This document shows, in pieces, positions 614 to 13,630 of a stretch of DNA of 37,091 nt (position 1 is the first letter of the stretch; each line of letters starts with the position of its first letter). Made by a program: the position numbers and the translations under genes. The DNA is from a virus, in IMG/VR virus record IMGVR_UViG_3300033149_000442, positions 1 to 37,091 of that record; one strand, given 5' to 3'. The notes under the pieces were generated by a model, which saw only the letters and a program-made list of their open reading frames with translations, was not told the DNA's origin and did not search any database.

Positions 614-817
614 ATGGCAAAGAATATCACAGTATTAGCAACAGGTGGAACACCAAAAGTAGTTGAAGTATCTACAGTGCAACAAGCATACGATGCACTT
701 AACCTTACTGGTGCAATGACAGCGACAGTTAACGGCGAACCTGCAAACATGACAGATTCAGTATCTGATTTTGCACACGTATCATTTTCTGCTCAAGTAA
801 AGGGTGGAAACAAGTAA
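614..817 (+). CDS. Ubiquitin-like modifier (Prok_Ub / PRTRC protein C-like)
   Basis: A 67-aa protein starting MAKNITVLATGG. Alternating strands (ITVLA, KVVEV), a helix (VQQAYDAL) and further strands (TATVNGE, HVSFSAQVK) fit a small beta-grasp fold. The C-terminus ends VKGGNK: Gly64-Gly65 followed by Asn-Lys. This resembles ubiquitin-like precursors that must be trimmed after Gly-Gly before E1 activation. The start has a strong AAGGAGAA ribosome-binding site. The next three genes code an E2-like protein, a JAMM peptidase and an E1, in the order of PRTRC cassettes (C, B, A, ThiF), which is the strongest support. A terminator directly follows the gene. Sequence alone could also fit a ThiS/MoaD-type sulfur carrier, but the E2 neighbour argues for protein conjugation. 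Confidence 0.72.
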   Translation: MAKNITVLATGGTPKVVEVSTVQQAYDALNLTGAMTATVNGEPANMTDSVSDFAHVSFSAQVKGGNK

Positions 818-863
818 TTATTATTAACTATATAGTTTAATTATAATTCATCTTCTTTTTGAC

Positions 864-913
864 AACCCCCCGATCTTACTAACTACTACACATAGCGTTT
901 GTCGGGGGTTTTT
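864..913 (+). terminator. Rho-independent terminator after the Ubl gene
   Basis: AACCCCCCGA (864-873) can pair with TCGGGGGTTTT (902-912), followed by a T-run to 913. The loop is long (about 28 nt). It sits between the Ubl gene and the E2-like gene, so it should attenuate rather than block the cassette. This would leave Ubl transcripts more abundant than those for the enzymes. Confidence 0.7.
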
Positions 914-933
914 ATTAACTAAACGGAGTATTT

Positions 934-2700
934 ATGGGCAAGAAATACGCAGATTATACAGTGGATGATCTAGTTAGGTTAGATTTATCCTTCTTATTGA
1001 AAGATAAGACAGATGAAGAGAAAGTCGCTCAACGTGACGCTTTCATCTATTTAAAGAATACAGCACGTAGCTGTCGTATAGACATAGGCAATTGGAAACT
1101 ATTGGAAATGTTTGGTGATGGTACGTCTAGCAATATGGTCACAGATAAGGCTAAGATCAATGAGATACTGTTTAGCCGTATCCATGAGTCGAAGGAAGCG
1201 GACGCTACTAATGGCCTAGGGTTTTCATTACTTGGTAATTTCAAGGGTGAGATACTAGAGGCTACTAAGGTTGATTACGATTCCGTTATTAGGAGCCATA
1301 AGAGAGACTTGGAATCAGTGAATACATATCTGACTGACTATCAGAATCGTGTAAATAAGTATATCCGTAGAGCTAGGAATCATCATAAGGAGATTGATGA
1401 GCTAGAGGCTAAGAAATTAGCGGGTATTGCAGACGATACTGTTTATAAAGCAGTACAGCAGATATTATCTAACCCTTACTGGCAATTCATCGGTATTAAG
1501 GACGATGGTAATAAGTTATTGTTCGCTACTACTGAGTATGTGAAGCAATCATTGGTAAATCCGGCCGCAGGGATTAATATACATGTGGAGTATGGTGTTT
1601 ACTACGTAGAGATTAATTTAACCGGAAAGCTTATAAATTGCTACCCGTACATGGATTCGTTGTATGTTTATAATCCGCACCCTCATGTGAGTAGTGGAGG
1701 TACTATATGTTGGGGTAATTACAGTTCTACGGTTCAAGAACATATAGGAGCTGATAGATGGAAAGATGTAATGGATATTTTACAGACGTTATTAACTACA
1801 TACTGCGGTGATAATCCATATACAGCTATTGAAACAATTAATGATTATTATAAGACGTTATTCACACCGCCTGAACAGGTAGATTCAGCTTCTATACTTG
1901 AACAGGTATTTTCAGGTTCAAGTGAGGAGAGCCATAGGCGAGTGATTACTAAGGGTAATTTGGATATGGATACTTATCCGCTCCATGTAACACCGACTCG
2001 TGATGTACCTATCTATTTACCTGCTAATTCATCTTTAGATGAGACACATGAGGATTATCCTTTTATGGCTTATACTCTATCAGGACGTGAGGAAGGGTTA
2101 TTCATCTGGAACATGGAACATAGACGTTTGTATATGACAATGAAGCATAGTGACACACCTGACAGGATTAAGGCTGTGCGTATGTGTTCTGATAGTTCCG
2201 CTAGTGTGTTTGTAGGCCGCGAAGGTGAGATGAATTATAATAAATTTAAGGTGTTTAAGAGTTATAAACACATGCTTAATTCAATACCATTCATGGGTCA
2301 GTCTTTTAGAGAGGAACATGTATTAGATGTGTTCAACTCACATGGTATTTTCATTGGTTCACCTATCGCTAAGATTAGAGAGGATGGGAGTATCCGACGC
2401 AATGGTATACTTAGATCGTTTAACGGTAGACCTACTACTAATAGCTTCTTTAGTGATTACTGGAGTAATGCTACATTTATCTACGGGTATGGTAGTAGCG
2501 ATTGTTACTTCGAGTCAATAGTCCCTCGACCACTTAGAGGTGAGAGTAAGGTCGATTACATAGATAGATTAGAGAAGTATAAATGCAAACTAGCAGAACG
2601 AGGTAACAGGATAATATGTGAGGATAATTGGTCAGTGGCATTAGGTAATTTACTAGACGAGTGGACTAAGATTAATGGAGAGGAATCAAATGAAAGTTAA
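934..2700 (+). CDS. E2-like ubiquitin-conjugating protein (Prok-E2 family D / PRTRC protein B-like), long form
   Basis: 588 aa. Residues 248-262 read PHPHVSSGGTICWGN, matching the UBC-fold active-site signature (HPH...G-x-I-C) with Cys259 as the expected thioester residue and His249/His251 upstream. The C-W-G-N ending resembles PRTRC protein B as I remember that family. Residues 120-165 are charged and helical, probably coiled. The part after about residue 330 (260 residues) has no domain I recognise; it is rich in Tyr, Ser and Gly and contains an FIWNMEHRRLYMTMKHSD strand-like segment. The protein is much longer than a minimal E2 (about 150 aa), so it may carry substrate or Ubl recognition parts. 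Its 3' end overlaps the JAMM gene by 11 bp. Expected role: accept Ubl from the E1 at 3583 and pass it to a target. Confidence 0.7.
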   Translation: MGKKYADYTVDDLVRLDLSFLLKDKTDEEKVAQRDAFIYLKNTARSCRIDIGNWKLLEMFGDGTSSNMVTDKAKINEILFSRIHESKEADATNGLGFSLLGNFKGEILEATKVDYDSVIRSHKRDLESVNTYLTDYQNRVNKYIRRARNHHKEIDELEAKKLAGIADDTVYKAVQQILSNPYWQFIGIKDDGNKLLFATTEYVKQSLVNPAAGINIHVEYGVYYVEINLTGKLINCYPYMDSLYVYNPHPHVSSGGTICWGNYSSTVQEHIGADRWKDVMDILQTLLTTYCGDNPYTAIETINDYYKTLFTPPEQVDSASILEQVFSGSSEESHRRVITKGNLDMDTYPLHVTPTRDVPIYLPANSSLDETHEDYPFMAYTLSGREEGLFIWNMEHRRLYMTMKHSDTPDRIKAVRMCSDSSASVFVGREGEMNYNKFKVFKSYKHMLNSIPFMGQSFREEHVLDVFNSHGIFIGSPIAKIREDGSIRRNGILRSFNGRPTTNSFFSDYWSNATFIYGYGSSDCYFESIVPRPLRGESKVDYIDRLEKYKCKLAERGNRIICEDNWSVALGNLLDEWTKINGEESNES

Positions 2701-3586
2701 AATACCATACGAATTACATGATAAAATTATGTTCTTCGTTCATAAAAGTAGTATCGAAATAAGCATGATGGCACGTATAAAGAAAGAGAAGGATACCTTC
2801 ATACTTACTAACGTGTATTTATTAGATCAAGAGAATACAGCTACCTCTACAGACATTGATGCTACGGCATTAGGTAAGCTGATGTATGAGAGTAGAGAGG
2901 ACGAGGGATTCCTGAATTGTTGGATACATTCTCACGTAAACATGGGTGTGTTCTGGTCGGGGACTGATAAGGATACTATTAAGGAGTTCGGGAGCAATGG
3001 CTTCCTACTCTCCCTAGTATTTAATAAGAAGGGTGAGGTTAGGGCGCATTACTTCCAAGGAGAGCAAGGTGCAGACTCACCGCTTCCTTGGCTAGAGATT
3101 GACGATATACCTGTAGAGATTACATACCCTACAGTTAAAGGTAGAAAAGATTGGGAGAAGGAGTATAGGGAGAAGTGTAGAACTAAAACTTATAATCAAT
3201 CAACATTACCAATGCCGGGAAAGCATCATACCACCACCTTTCCGAACAGCAACTTTGGTGGGAAGAGTGGTGGGAAGCTCAAAGAACAAGCGACTTTAGC
3301 TACTGAAAGAGAACATGGCATGATTAATCCTAAGAACATTAACCAACGGTGGCACACTAACCAATATGGTAAAGGTTCCTGGATGAATTATAAGAAGTTT
3401 GTAAGGAACAACGCTTGGTATGATTCACTTAATGTACTTGACCAGTTAGACGGTGCAAGGAACGCATGGATTAAAATTTATCAGAGAGATAAAGGTGAGA
3501 TGCCACTAGATGATTATGCAGTTAATGACTTCTATATGGAGGTTAAGAAGATGAGTCCTATGGATTTCTATGAGGAGGTAGTATGA
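2690..3586 (+). CDS. JAMM/JAB metallopeptidase (PRTRC protein A-like deubiquitinase)
   Basis: 298 aa from the ATG at 2690, which has GGAGAGG six bases upstream; an ATG at 2675 overlaps that site and is less likely. The JAMM zinc signature is complete: His80-Ser-His82, seven residues, Ser90, two residues, Asp93, with Glu23 on an early strand as the likely catalytic acid. The JAB domain fills about residues 1-150. A Lys/Gly/His-rich linker (about 155-210) and a 90-residue C-terminal part with aromatic and helical character follow; I do not recognise it. Probable role: remove the Asn-Lys tail from the Ubl after Gly65 and/or cleave Ubl from targets. Stop and next start overlap as ATGA. Confidence 0.85.
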   Translation: MKVKIPYELHDKIMFFVHKSSIEISMMARIKKEKDTFILTNVYLLDQENTATSTDIDATALGKLMYESREDEGFLNCWIHSHVNMGVFWSGTDKDTIKEFGSNGFLLSLVFNKKGEVRAHYFQGEQGADSPLPWLEIDDIPVEITYPTVKGRKDWEKEYREKCRTKTYNQSTLPMPGKHHTTTFPNSNFGGKSGGKLKEQATLATEREHGMINPKNINQRWHTNQYGKGSWMNYKKFVRNNAWYDSLNVLDQLDGARNAWIKIYQRDKGEMPLDDYAVNDFYMEVKKMSPMDFYEEVV

Positions 3587-4257
3587 AAGCAAGTTACACA
3601 TTTAAAGATACGTTAGTACGTCAGTCGGATTTAATTCCGATTGATGTACTAAGTAAGAAGATAACTATCATTGGAGCAGGGGCCGTGGGTTCATGGACTG
3701 CTCTAGCATTAGCTAAGATGGGGTTCCTTAACCTTGAGATATGGGACGATGATGTTGTTAGTGTTGAGAATATGAACAACCAAATGTACCCGATCACATC
3801 AATAGATGAACCAAAGGTACAGGCATTAGGGGATATGATTAACATGTTCACTGGTCGCAGGGTTGTAACCATCAATGGTAGATATGAAGGGGAGAAATTA
3901 ACTGGGGATATAGTTATCTCCGCTGTTGATAATATGAAAGTCCGTAAAAGCATTTGGGATAATTCTCGAGCATCATGGCTTATAGACCCTCGAATGGGGG
4001 CTGAGTCTGCGCTGTTATATGTGATGAACCGACAAGACCCTGCTGATAAGGTTACTTATACCAAGACTTTACATACGGACGAAGAGGGGGTGCATGAGCC
4101 ATGTACTGCTAAGTCTACGATCTACTGCTCTAACTTCCTATCCGGTTTGGTAGCTAGGTCAGTGAAGCAGATAGCTACTGCATCTCCTCATACTAGAATC
4201 ATGCAGGCTAACCTGTCTGGTGCTGAGAATATTGTCCAGAGTTGGGGGAAGAAATAA
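3583..4257 (+). CDS. ThiF/E1-like adenylating enzyme (PRTRC ThiF-like), short form
   Basis: 224 aa, a single Rossmann-type adenylation domain. The ATP-binding loop is GAGAVGS at residues 31-37. Acidic residues Asp55-Asp57 precede VENMNNQ, and the conserved Asp116 and Arg121 are in SAVDNMKVR. Cys174 in EPCTAKSTIYC is the best candidate catalytic cysteine; Cys184 is nearby. Most ThiF/E1 proteins have Asn-x-x-Arg-Gln where this one has Asn63-Met-Asn-Asn66-Gln, so the usual nucleotide-contacting Arg is missing. There is no C-terminal ubiquitin-fold domain. Expected role: adenylate the Gly65 end of the Ubl and transfer it to the E2-like protein. It is the last gene of the cassette and is followed by a hairpin. 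Confidence 0.85.
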   Translation: MKASYTFKDTLVRQSDLIPIDVLSKKITIIGAGAVGSWTALALAKMGFLNLEIWDDDVVSVENMNNQMYPITSIDEPKVQALGDMINMFTGRRVVTINGRYEGEKLTGDIVISAVDNMKVRKSIWDNSRASWLIDPRMGAESALLYVMNRQDPADKVTYTKTLHTDEEGVHEPCTAKSTIYCSNFLSGLVARSVKQIATASPHTRIMQANLSGAENIVQSWGKK

Positions 4258-4260
4258 AAA

Positions 4261-4279
4261 CAGGGGGACTATCCCCCTG
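4261..4279. terminator. Terminator-like hairpin after the E1 gene
   Basis: Perfect 8-bp stem CAGGGGGA/TCCCCCTG with a 3-nt loop. On the + strand it is followed only by AATTTAC, a weak T-tract. On the - strand it is followed by TTTTTATTTC, a good one. It can end the Ubl cassette transcript and would stop antisense transcripts coming from the convergent late block. Confidence 0.65.
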
Positions 4280-4340
4280 AATTTACACACAACTATCTGA
4301 TTACTATAGGCATTATTGCCTGAGAGGAAGCTACCACACC

Positions 4341-4369
4341 TTGACAATAATGTTAAGGGAAATTAACCT
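4341..4369 (+). promoter_or_regulatory. Possible sigma-70 promoter for the replication genes
   Basis: TTGACA (4341-4346) matches the -35 consensus fully. A 17-nt spacer leads to TAACCT (4364-4369), a weak -10. It lies in the only real gap between the Ubl cassette and the primase gene, just after a terminator, which is where a new promoter would be expected. Confidence 0.4.
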
Positions 4370-4396
4370 AGTATTTTACAATTACATGGGGGTAAT

Positions 4397-6736
4397 ATGT
4401 TCATCCAATTGCTAGGACTGAGGGACTACACTTGCACTAAGGAGAATAGACTCAAGAAGAGAGAGACTTTCTATAGTAAGGGGTGGAGAGCGAACTCGGT
4501 TAAAGATTTATTCGATAACTTAGAAACATACATAGAGCAGATACCAGAGAGTGAAAGATACAATATGTTCTACACTGTGGCTAACTGTATAGAGGATAGA
4601 GGAAGGAACCTAGCATATCAGGACGTTATCCCTTTTGATATTGATGACATAGATTTAGATAAGATAGATTTATATGTAAAGGTGGTCATTGATTGCCTCG
4701 GTTTAAACTTAGAGGACACAGGTGTTGTTGCCACTGGTAACGGGCTTCACTTCCTTATAGGTATCAACCAGCGTATAGATCATACAGAATATTTTGACGA
4801 GCACAAAGCTTATTATAAATCCCTATGTGGTAACATAGCAAATGCCCTGTTCACTGCCGGCCTAACCGGTAACGTGGATACTTCAGTTTTTAGTAAGGGG
4901 CGGCTACTACGTCTGCCTCTTACTAAGAACATTAAACCGAACAAGGGAGAAAAAGATGCCACGTTCATACAGAGAACCATTAACCCGATTGACTTCAACC
5001 TCGTCGAACGATCAGGGATACCTGTCCTTGGTATTGACGACTCGCTCAACGAGGATTTGCTTAAGCGCTTGCCTCCACCTGATACAGAGGGCGTACTCAA
5101 TGGCTGTGACTTCATCAAATGGTGTGGCGAGAATCAAGATCAAGTTAGTGAGCCGCAATGGTATGCTATGCTTTCTATTGTCGCTCGACTCAATGATGGG
5201 ATGGAGCTTGCTAAAGCGTATAGCCAAGGGCATCCAGACTACAATGAACTCCACACCGTTTCCAAGTCTCAGCAGGCAATTGAGTCCGCAGGCCCAAGAA
5301 CATGTGCTAACATCAACTCTTTATGGGAAGGGTGCGGAACGTGTAAGAATTATGGTAAGTGTACCTCACCCATATCATTACAGTCTAAGGAGTTCATCAA
5401 GACTTCCGTAACCGGATTCTATGATATGGTTGTTGACAACCAAGGTGTTGTTAAGAGGGGTAAGCCTAACTACGATGACCTGATGAAACAGTTTGAGCAA
5501 GACCATGACTTCATCTGTACTGAAGAGGGGCGTATGCTTTACGTCCACGATGGCACTCATTGGCAAGACTTCTCAGCGTTAAAGATTGAGTCGTATGCTG
5601 AGCAACACTTTGACCCTACACCTAACAATACTATGTGTCAGGAGTTTAAGTCTAAGTTACAAAGAAATAATATTAGAAGTATCCAATGGTTTAATGTTGA
5701 GAACAAACTTAACATGGCTAACGGTGTATTAGATATGGATACACTAACCCTTAGTCACCATACAGATGGTCTAGGTTTTAGATATGTACTACCATTCGAC
5801 TATGACCCTACTGCTACCTGTCCAGTGTTCGATAGTATCCTACACAAGGTGACCTTGGGTGATGAACAAATGAAGCTACTCCTCCTTGAGTATATGGCTT
5901 ATAGTATCTCGGGTATGGACTCTGCCATTGGACAGAAAGCTCTCATCTTAACAGGTGAAGGTTCCAATGGTAAGTCCGTATTCCTTGATATACTTAAGCA
6001 TCTAGTCGGGAAGGATAACTACTGTACCCTATCAATGGGTACGGAGATAAATAAGTTGGAGAACAGATACCAATTAGAGGGTAAGCTGTTTAACATCTCA
6101 GAAGAAACACCTAGTAATGCCATGGTTGAGGGGTCTATCTTTAAAGCCTTGGTAACAGGCGGTGAGGTGCAGGCAAGGAAGCTGTATTGCGATTCGTACT
6201 CCATGAAGAACAATGCAAAGATTATCATGGCGTGTAACGAGTTACCCCCAACAACTGATAGCACACATGGTATGTTCCGCCGGCTCCTCATCGTTCCTTT
6301 CTCTGCTACGTTTAGCAAGAGTGATGCGGATTATGATCCACTGATTAAGAAGAAAGCCTTTGCTGAGGCATCGGGTATCTTTAATAAAGTGATAGCAGTA
6401 CTACCTGCACTGAGGGATAGGGGATTCTTTAGTGAGTCTGATGCGGTAGAGGAAACGGTTGCTGATTATATGAGCGACAACGATGACATCAGTACATGGT
6501 GGGATAACGTATCCGTTGAGTGTAGTACCAGTGAGATACCATCATCATTATTGTACTCCATGTATCAGTCACAGATGTTAACCAATGGTATCAGACCTAA
6601 GACTGAGACTTTATTTAGAAAGAGAATGAATAAGATAATACCAAAAGAGAAGAGAAGTAGACGAAGAGTTAATGGATTAAGACAGGTAGTATTTAAAGGC
6701 TACCGTATGGCGGAGGCACAAGACGATGACAAGTAA
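4397..6736 (+). CDS. Primase-polymerase / SF3 (D5-like) helicase
   Basis: 779 aa. The N-terminal part looks like an archaeo-eukaryotic primase-polymerase: acidic pair Asp81/Asp83 in PFDIDDID, GNGLHF with His118, and a downstream SKGRLLRLP. A middle segment holds CGTCKNYGKC, probably zinc-binding, in a PriCT-like region (about 230-330). From about residue 345 it resembles D5_N, followed by an SF3 helicase with Walker A GEGSNGKS at 520-527 and ACNELPP as a sensor-type motif. It should prime and unwind the phage DNA, replacing the T7 gp4-type enzyme. The ribosome-binding site is a modest GGGGGT. The stop region overlaps the next start by 11 bp. Confidence 0.85.
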   Translation: MFIQLLGLRDYTCTKENRLKKRETFYSKGWRANSVKDLFDNLETYIEQIPESERYNMFYTVANCIEDRGRNLAYQDVIPFDIDDIDLDKIDLYVKVVIDCLGLNLEDTGVVATGNGLHFLIGINQRIDHTEYFDEHKAYYKSLCGNIANALFTAGLTGNVDTSVFSKGRLLRLPLTKNIKPNKGEKDATFIQRTINPIDFNLVERSGIPVLGIDDSLNEDLLKRLPPPDTEGVLNGCDFIKWCGENQDQVSEPQWYAMLSIVARLNDGMELAKAYSQGHPDYNELHTVSKSQQAIESAGPRTCANINSLWEGCGTCKNYGKCTSPISLQSKEFIKTSVTGFYDMVVDNQGVVKRGKPNYDDLMKQFEQDHDFICTEEGRMLYVHDGTHWQDFSALKIESYAEQHFDPTPNNTMCQEFKSKLQRNNIRSIQWFNVENKLNMANGVLDMDTLTLSHHTDGLGFRYVLPFDYDPTATCPVFDSILHKVTLGDEQMKLLLLEYMAYSISGMDSAIGQKALILTGEGSNGKSVFLDILKHLVGKDNYCTLSMGTEINKLENRYQLEGKLFNISEETPSNAMVEGSIFKALVTGGEVQARKLYCDSYSMKNNAKIIMACNELPPTTDSTHGMFRRLLIVPFSATFSKSDADYDPLIKKKAFAEASGIFNKVIAVLPALRDRGFFSESDAVEETVADYMSDNDDISTWWDNVSVECSTSEIPSSLLYSMYQSQMLTNGIRPKTETLFRKRMNKIIPKEKRSRRRVNGLRQVVFKGYRMAEAQDDDK

Positions 6737-12728: not shown

Positions 12729-12939
12729 CTCCTTTAGCTAAGCTCACTTCTTCGAGGTTACCAAGGAAGGTAGCCTCATCTTCTGTATCCACTAGCCACC
12801 AAGTAAAGGTAACACTAGTCTTGGATGATCGTAGGAACCAACCACATAACTCACACACTACAGTATCATCACCAATAGCATGATCTATAAATCTTATTCT
12901 ATATAATTGACGCTTCTTAAATCTAGGGAGTTTTGCCAT
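12691..12939 (-). CDS. Small unknown protein, last gene of the late operon
   Basis: 82 aa, reading MAKLPRFKKRQLYRIRFIDH then VVCELCGWFLR and TFTWWLVDTED. It looks like a small beta-rich protein with a CELC pair. The start has AGGAAG upstream and overlaps the phosphoesterase gene by 17 bp. Its 3' end overlaps the convergent nuclease gene by 38 bp. No function assigned. Confidence 0.7.
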   Translation of the reverse strand: MAKLPRFKKRQLYRIRFIDHAIGDDTVVCELCGWFLRSSKTSVTFTWWLVDTEDEATFLGNLEEVSLAKGAIVSCVPVKREE

Positions 12940-13630
12940 TCCATCTTCCTGATGATGTTAGCGGCATAGGTAGTATCCTTGCTACACCGTCTATGATTAT
13001 ACCATGTGATATGATCGGTTCTACTGTGAAGTTCTTATTGTATGCGTAAGCGTAGCTATTGTTATCAATACTACAACCAACAGTCATACCAAAGTGAACC
13101 TTGTTCTTTATCGAATAGAAGCGAACATCAGCTTGTGAGTGGTGGTGACCTTGTACAAAAGAATGACCACGACACTGAGCTTCCGCTATTACATTTTTTC
13201 TACGGCCGTGGGCAAACGTAACCTTGTTACCATTACTCATCTTTAATGTTAAAGAAGGATGCCAGTTCCATTCCTTCGGGGCGTCTAATACTTCCTTGTA
13301 ACTCTTAAGTAAGTGACGAGGCATCCCATGGTGCTTGGCTTTTCTATAGCTCATGCTCCCATGGTTAGATTCTAATACGTCACACTCAGGAAATAAACTG
13401 AATAAACCTTGCATGTGAGCTAACCCTTTCTGTAGCTCCTTACCTGCACTATCTAAGTCAGGGTCAGAATCATGGAAGGACATAGCATGGTAGTCTAGTT
13501 CATCACCAAGGCATACCACTTTATCTGGTCTGTATTTCTTTTTAATTGCAGCTAGGAACTTAAGGGAATCCTTATGTGAGTAAGGAAAGTGTAGATCAGA
13601 TATACACAATATCGTCTTGTATTTTTTCAC
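12923..13630 (-). CDS. Calcineurin-like metallophosphoesterase
   Basis: 235 aa with a GTG start preceded by AGGAAG. The five metal motifs are in order: SDLH (Asp12, His14), GDELD (Asp43, Asp46), SNHG (Asn89, His90), AHG (His141) and GHHH (162-164). This is a complete set for a dinuclear metallophosphoesterase. Gly-Asn-His-Asp/Glu is altered to Ser-Asn-His-Gly, which may change substrate. Phage enzymes of this family include phosphatases and nucleases; substrate cannot be told here. It lies downstream of the lysis genes in the late block. Confidence 0.9.
   Translation of the reverse strand: MKKYKTILCISDLHFPYSHKDSLKFLAAIKKKYRPDKVVCLGDELDYHAMSFHDSDPDLDSAGKELQKGLAHMQGLFSLFPECDVLESNHGSMSYRKAKHHGMPRHLLKSYKEVLDAPKEWNWHPSLTLKMSNGNKVTFAHGRRKNVIAEAQCRGHSFVQGHHHSQADVRFYSIKNKVHFGMTVGCSIDNNSYAYAYNKNFTVEPIISHGIIIDGVARILPMPLTSSGRWNGKTP

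Follow-up and report, generated by a model that had tools for sequence, protein, structure and literature searches.

The virus record IMGVR_UViG_3300033149_000442 (37,091 bases, 41% G+C), which was analyzed over its whole length and is referred to here as the window, carries a cassette of four plus-strand genes at positions 614–4257. The genes code for a ubiquitin-like protein (Ubl), an E2-like protein, a JAB/JAMM metalloprotease, and a ThiF-type E1 activating enzyme, and all four open reading frames (ORFs) were confirmed at these positions. The features of the cassette are as follows.

614–817, plus strand: Ubl, 67 amino acids (aa), with ribosome-binding site AGGAG; Gly-Gly codons at 803–808 and a two-residue tail at 809–814.
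866–914, plus strand: terminator-like hairpin with a T run in the gap between Ubl and E2 (RNA fold −14.5 kcal/mol, z −2.4).
934–2700, plus strand: E2-like protein (UBC fold, predicted), 588 aa, from homologue alignment and fold and profile matches.
1678–1710, plus strand: E2 active-site motif HPHVSSGGTIC (His249 to Cys259), from alignment and profile.
2690–3586, plus strand: JAB/JAMM metalloprotease, 298 aa, with ribosome-binding site GGAGAGG 5′ of 2690.
3583–4257, plus strand: ThiF/E1-like activating enzyme, 224 aa (Pfam ThiF, 8.8e-18).
4261–4279, no strand assigned: hairpin 3′ of ThiF that closes the cassette before the primase (fold z −3.6).

The tight gene order described in the original prediction applies to the last three genes. 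The mechanical ORF for JAB starts at 2675, and the start with a proper ribosome-binding site (GGAGAGG immediately upstream) is at 2690; E2 and JAB therefore overlap by 11 bp, and JAB and ThiF overlap by 4 bp. Ubl is set apart, being separated from E2 by 116 bp that contain the terminator-like hairpin, which may let Ubl be made in excess. The hairpin that follows ThiF has a strong stem, and its T run occurs only on the minus-strand reading, where it resembles a terminator.

The Ubl ends in VKGGNK, and its AlphaFold2 model (predicted local distance difference test score, pLDDT, of 82) has the beta-beta-alpha-beta-beta-beta order of a beta-grasp fold. The best 50 Foldseek matches in the PDB were led by SUMO, ubiquitin, MoaD, ThiS, and SAMP, with a top probability of 1.00, and the best solved structures were SUMO, Mth1743, archaeal ubiquitin, MoaD, ubiquitin, TtuB, ThiS, and SAMP1. 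A profile search of PDB sequences matched Pyrococcus SAMP2 (1.1e-7) and also MoaD, with the alignment reaching the Gly-Gly, and a Myxococcota homologue clears the Pfam ThiS cut-off (3.7e-8). The model, Foldseek, and the SAMP2/MoaD profile match thus bear out the beta-grasp fold expected of the 67-aa protein. A match to PF18815 was below cut-off and was taken as chance. Across 20 aligned homologues the domain ends in K/E-G-G/A followed by 0–22 aa (two in the window), and the terminal di-glycine (or Gly-Ala/Ala-Gly) at the domain end is kept. Three loci (L011, L013, and L016) code for a Ubl that stops at the last glycine and still retain JAB, which points to a second role for JAB in deconjugation, in addition to trimming the tail. 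A separate 182-kb virus contig has a second Ubl-like ORF (L022:9132-9407) that lacks the terminal di-glycine.

The E2-like protein has a helical/coiled-coil N-terminus (residues 1–165), a UBC core (168–312), and a variable C-terminus (320–588), and the two flanking regions differ in length among relatives. The sequence around the active site, PHPHVSSGGTICWGN, includes His249, His251, and Cys259 (codon at 1708–1710). The full-length model has a low pLDDT of 65, with residues 168–312 mostly >90; this core consists of a helix, six strands, the HPH..Cys loop, and three helices. Gly221, Cys259, and Gly261 (at +2 from the cysteine) are invariant over 28 homologues. His249 is invariant in the full-length alignment and kept in ≥90% of sequences in the core alignment, and the whole His-Pro-His is kept in ≥90%. 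All six of the best Foldseek PDB matches were E2 enzymes or E2 fusions (best match: probability 0.95, template modeling score 0.57 to the target, E 0.075). The core profile had 21 matches to PDB sequences at E ≤ 10, of which 20 were E2s (best E 0.39), and its alignment lays the HPH..G-x-C motif on the HPNINANGNIC of true E2s. We identify the protein as an E2 because competitors are lacking and the motif register is exact, though single matches are weak, and the UBC-like fold proposed around Cys259 is supported at moderate strength by the core model, Foldseek, and the profile. It would add to the prokaryotic relatives of the ubiquitin system an E2 lineage that has no name and whose HPx-Cys arrangement is the classical one. 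A search of viral models with Foldseek gave one match, A0A516LW79 (E 2.2e-4), and a match to PF21017 fell below cut-off and was taken as chance. Three Planctomycetota homologues (L045:4310-5329, L047:4366-5409, and L050:4142-5332) have a Cys-rich domain with many CxxC pairs C-terminal to the UBC core. This domain is possibly a zinc-binding, E3-like part; Pfam at E ≤ 0.01 across the 28 E2 members gave no match for it save one to a zinc ribbon.

The JAMM motif of the metalloprotease, HSHVNMGVFWSGTD (2927–2968), is complete (H80-S-H82-x7-S90-x2-D93, plus Glu23). The best profile match in the PDB was the Caldiarchaeum Rpn11-like protein (1.1e-5), followed by Rpn11, JAMM1, and AMSH-like proteins. 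The motif is intact in all uninterrupted JABs found. One interrupted JAB occurs on a phage-like contig of a metagenome-assembled genome (MAG), where an insertion of about 0.75 kb splits the gene inside the HSH codons (L030:3979-5584) and holds a LAGLIDADG-like ORF (4300–4875); an Rfam search of the insertion gave no intron match. Homing elements favor conserved active-site codons. The E1 is a minimal single adenylation domain with a GAGAVGS loop and Cys174 (4102–4104), and it scores 64.7 bits against Pfam ThiF PF00899 (cut-off 28.1). Profile matches in the PDB include TcdA, UBA5, the NEDD8 and SUMO E1s, ThiF, MoeB, Cap2, and BubCD. It has ten residues in common with E. coli ThiF and MoeB (G31, G33, D55, D57, N63, Q67, K78, D116, R121, and C174), including the E1 cysteine, which aligns with the cysteine of both proteins, and the E1 motifs are retained in every intact copy. 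Together, the ORFs, motifs, folds, and profile matches agree with the four identities proposed in the original prediction.

We searched for relatives of the cassette in viral and microbial databases. The primase query identified the first relative, and alignment queries identified the rest of 15 contigs with this ThiF type; single-sequence viral scans with E2 and ThiF gave no matches, and neither did tblastn searches of annotated phages with E2 and JAB. Gene order was taken from hidden Markov model searches of the ORFs of the relatives, save for one Ubl (in L028) that was spotted by eye just 5′ of E2. The four-gene order is present in the window and 15 other distinct IMG/VR contigs, and the cassette-bearing IMG/VR contigs are 10–182 kb long. 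Downstream of the cassette, the window, L005, L014, and L030 share their primase and helicase. The same cassette also occurs in Myxococcota and Planctomycetota MAG contigs, and bacterial and archaeal genome bins hold 22 loci with relatives, from these two phyla and from two contigs that group with viruses. One of these two carries phage genes (L030), and the other (L029; 8 kb, Lokiarchaeota MAG) has a full cassette that clusters with virus contigs L023/L024 and is probably a virus contig within the Lokiarchaeota bin. Because the order recurs and catalytic residues are kept in intact copies, the cassette is not a chance arrangement, and its parts can be called intact and a single unit, as had been suggested from one sequence. 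Pairwise distances of Ubl, JAB, and E1 correlate over 20 loci (rho 0.57–0.70, permutation P = 0.0005), indicating that these three travel together. Planctomycetota, Myxococcota, and the crAss/Flavobacterium phages each form one group on the E1 tree; virus contigs require three changes, and the PRTRC row is too long-branched for placement. Some bacterial copies have neighbors of their own. A Myxococcota cassette (L034:1475-7841) is flanked on one side by a VirD4/TraG-like ATPase and on the other by a TOPRIM primase-like gene, a mobile-element-like setting, and a serine-recombinase-like gene is 5′ of the Planctomycetota cassette in L050.

The cassette was compared with known systems that have similar parts. 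PRTRC cassettes have the same kinds of parts (PRTRC-C, a Ubl; PRTRC-B, Prok-E2_D; PRTRC-A, a JAB; and a PRTRC ThiF) in the same order, are likewise carried by mobile DNA, and are comparable to row 6d of Iyer et al. 2006 (PMC1779556). GTICWGN in the cassette E2 is similar to the PRTRC-B motif GKICVGS, and the two E1s are clearly related (hhalign 1.6e-10). The analogy of gene order made in the original prediction therefore holds (PRTRC: C-F-B-A-ThiF), but membership in PRTRC does not. There was no match to Prok_Ub or Prok-E2_D in the window or the 28 E2 homologues, whereas Azonexus PRTRC proteins do match. DUF2016 and ParB were not found in the window (ParB_N had no match in the record, with positive controls), the ThiF scores 40.5 bits for TIGR03736 against an NCBIfam cut-off of 144.75, and the E2 core and PRTRC-B showed no significant similarity in hhalign. 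A ParB-like protein 5′ of the cassette in one virus contig (L011:457-1422) recalls the PRTRC ParB. The E2s of the row 6d operons lack the classical histidine (Iyer et al. 2006, PMC1779556), unlike the cassette E2 with its HPH.

ThiF loci of crAss-like and Flavobacterium phages (phrog_15670, 16107, 15310, and 15560; "unknown function" in PHROGs) are also similar. Their E1s (profile 1e-32 to 3e-34) and JABs (3e-5 to 3e-7) are related to those of the cassette and lie in the same order beside a primase, downstream of a Cys/His protein and of a larger protein whose N-terminus is Ubl-like. That Ubl-like domain has an extension of 110–200 aa and an hhalign P of only 0.0012, hhalign of the cassette E2 core with the crAss candidate E2 was not significant, and the loci are a distant branch on the E1 tree. 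Phage FpV4 is one carrier of this distant version, and the annotations of the loci go no further than thiamine biosynthesis protein, E1 enzyme, or metalloprotease.

The archaeal SAMP/JAMM1 and Caldiarchaeum ubiquitin-Rpn11 systems provide the best PDB sequence matches for Ubl (SAMP2) and JAB. Compared with them, the cassette is in a phage context, its E1 has no Cys domain, and no RING E3 was seen in a search whose controls were silent as well. The Bil/Bub operons and type II CBASS (cyclic-oligonucleotide-based antiphage signaling system) Cap2-Cap3 are work-alikes, having E1, E2, and JAB with a Ubl (or cGAS), and the E1 profile matches Cap2 and BubCD. The specific kinship with Cap2/Cap3 or Bil that was proposed is not upheld, as the architectures differ. 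Type II CBASS and 6A-MBL were rejected: the cassette E1 and E2 are separate genes and not a fused Cap2, and SMODS (the cGAS-like enzyme) had no match in a search with a few positive controls. The PADLOC/CBASS E1-E2 models were matched by the generic E1 domain only. Bil has a two-domain Ubl (BilA) and an E1 with inactive and active adenylation domains and a Cys domain (PMC11354881), whereas the cassette has a single-domain Ubl of 67 aa and an E1 of 224 aa with one ThiF domain, so it is not BilABCD. The lambda/T1 tail proteins I and K likewise bring Ubl and JAB together in phages; that set is part of a tail module with NlpC/P60, whereas the cassette adjoins a primase on the strand opposite the structural genes and has E1 and E2. 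The cassette Ubl and E2 are not represented by any family in Pfam, PHROGs, PADLOC, or NCBIfam. We found no description of such a cassette in the literature searched, a partial coverage that leaves priority unproven and that included a jumbo-phage overview (PMC7824862) and a crAss-like survey (PMC7886860). The cassette represents a genuine and conserved viral system that as yet has no name.

The rest of the window indicates the setting in which the cassette is carried. Its portal, capsid, and terminase are podovirus-like, and the portal has up to 45% identity with HTVC010P-type Pelagibacter phages. An ORF with YdcK-type beta-solenoid repeats spans the joined contig ends (about 36.9 kb to 425), and the record is therefore probably a complete circular permutation of the genome. 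The genes that come after the cassette on the plus strand code for a primase, an SNF2 helicase, and DNA polymerase A, and the minus strand carries the structural genes (14–36 kb). The first gene of the replication module is listed below.

4397–6736, plus strand: D5-type primase/helicase (Pfam D5_N / DUF5906; PHROGs primase; synteny).

A calcineurin-like phosphoesterase gene (12923–13630, minus strand) lies near the point where the coding strand changes. No tyrosine integrase was found in the virus record, which makes the label "lytic" in the original prediction plausible without demonstrating it. The claim that the cassette adjoins an early promoter region is not supported: there was no sigma-70-like promoter directly 5′ of the cassette, and promoter-like matches were rarer than in shuffled sequence.

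The cassette probably encodes a reversible, self-contained phage pathway for Ubl conjugation that operates in the replication phase. Our computations established the genes, their order and conservation, the motifs, and the predicted folds; from these we infer all chemical steps, the timing, and the target. The JAMM protease would trim Asn-Lys from Ubl and expose Gly65, which the ThiF-type E1 would adenylate with ATP before forming a thioester on Cys174. Ubl would then be handed to Cys259 of the E2 and joined to a target amine (probably a lysine) without a separate E3. The long extensions of the E2 (residues 1–165 and 320–588) could hold target selection and choose the partner, and the same JAMM protease would later strip Ubl from the target. 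The trimming, E1, and E2 steps accord with what is established for these families. The cassette runs in the same direction as the replication genes and lies directly upstream of them, so that, judged from this position, its most likely use is in the replication and takeover phase, on phage replication proteins or on host factors active there.

Several results weigh against this pathway. Single matches of the E2 are weak by both Foldseek and profile, although collectively good, and no Pfam E2 family matches it or its 28 homologues. The CxxC zinc pairs of ThiF/MoeB are missing from the E1, as is a separate Cys domain. No E3 was recognized in the genome, though the RING search had silent controls, and the expression timing has no support from any promoter signal. 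E2 distances covary weakly with those of the other three proteins (rho 0.18–0.26, 20 loci), as expected of a part that meets changing targets; poor alignment could give the same result. Cultured HTVC010P-like relatives seem to be without the cassette, which is therefore accessory.

The accessory distribution is also in keeping with a role in counter-defense, in which JAMM would take host Ubl off phage proteins, or the phage Ubl would occupy the host CBASS Cap2/Cap3 or Bil machinery or compete for it. Bacterial Ubl conjugation serves against phages (CBASS, PMC10097602; Bil, reviewed in PMC11354881), and JAMM deSAMPylases were proposed as counter-measures in a study of Borgs (PMC12660748). A decoy or deconjugase alone needs no E1 and E2 of its own, yet all four genes have been retained as a set whose active sites are intact, and the JAB profile is nearest to Rpn11-type proteins, with Cap3 models touched weakly by distant Planctomycetota JABs only. 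Counter-defense is thus unlikely as the primary function.

It is less likely still that Ubl, JAB, and ThiF serve to form a sulfur-donating C-terminal thiocarboxylate, like that of ThiS or MoaD, for a modified nucleotide or cofactor, with the E2-like protein as an accessory acceptor. Some conjugation Ubls, such as Urm1, carry sulfur too, and a dual role of the Ubl in conjugation and sulfur transfer is compatible with these results. The best NCBIfam scores of the E1 are for ThiF, ThiS and MoaD are among the relatives of the Ubl, and sets of ThiF, Ubl, and JAB occur in sulfur-assimilation gene clusters (PMC1779556). However, every complete cassette includes an E2 with an invariant cysteine and a near-invariant histidine, and the window proteins that were scanned included no rhodanese, cysteine desulfurase, ThiG, or MoaE.

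We give a slightly smaller chance to a set of E1, Ubl, and JAB accompanied by an unrelated Cys protein at 934–2700, from which conjugation, if any, would proceed straight from the E1. SAMP systems conjugate without an E2 in archaeal SAMPylation, and no individual E2 match is significant. This is countered by the consistent recovery of E2s (all six best Foldseek PDB matches and 20/21 profile matches), by the residue-by-residue alignment of HPN-C, and by the cysteine that is invariant in 28/28 homologues. Finally, action of Ubl and JAMM in virion assembly, in the manner of lambda/T1 tail proteins I and K, is very improbable: Ubl and JAB domains do occur in phage tail genes (PMC1779556) and Lambda_tail_I weakly matches a Myxococcota Ubl (E 0.078), but lambda sets have neither E1 nor E2, and the cassette is on the plus strand 5′ of the primase, opposite the minus-strand structural genes.

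Whether phages carry out Ubl conjugation, and of which proteins, can be tested directly, because the cassette is small, has no recognized helper, and offers four knock-out points (G65, C174, C259, and the JAMM His). The unnamed E2 lineage is useful for understanding the evolution of the ubiquitin system. Bacterial Ubl conjugation is known as an anti-phage weapon, and a phage with its own Ubl-E2-JAMM-E1 pathway reverses these roles and suggests that phages tag proteins in infected cells. The complete pathway seems to be widespread among phages. We see about an even chance that this viral ubiquitin system is a distinct lineage of complete, reversible Ubl pathways that passes between phages, from podoviruses to those on 182-kb contigs, as well as between phages and mobile elements of Myxococcota and Planctomycetota, and with which phages would tag their own proteins or those of the host during genome replication, independently of any host ubiquitin machinery.

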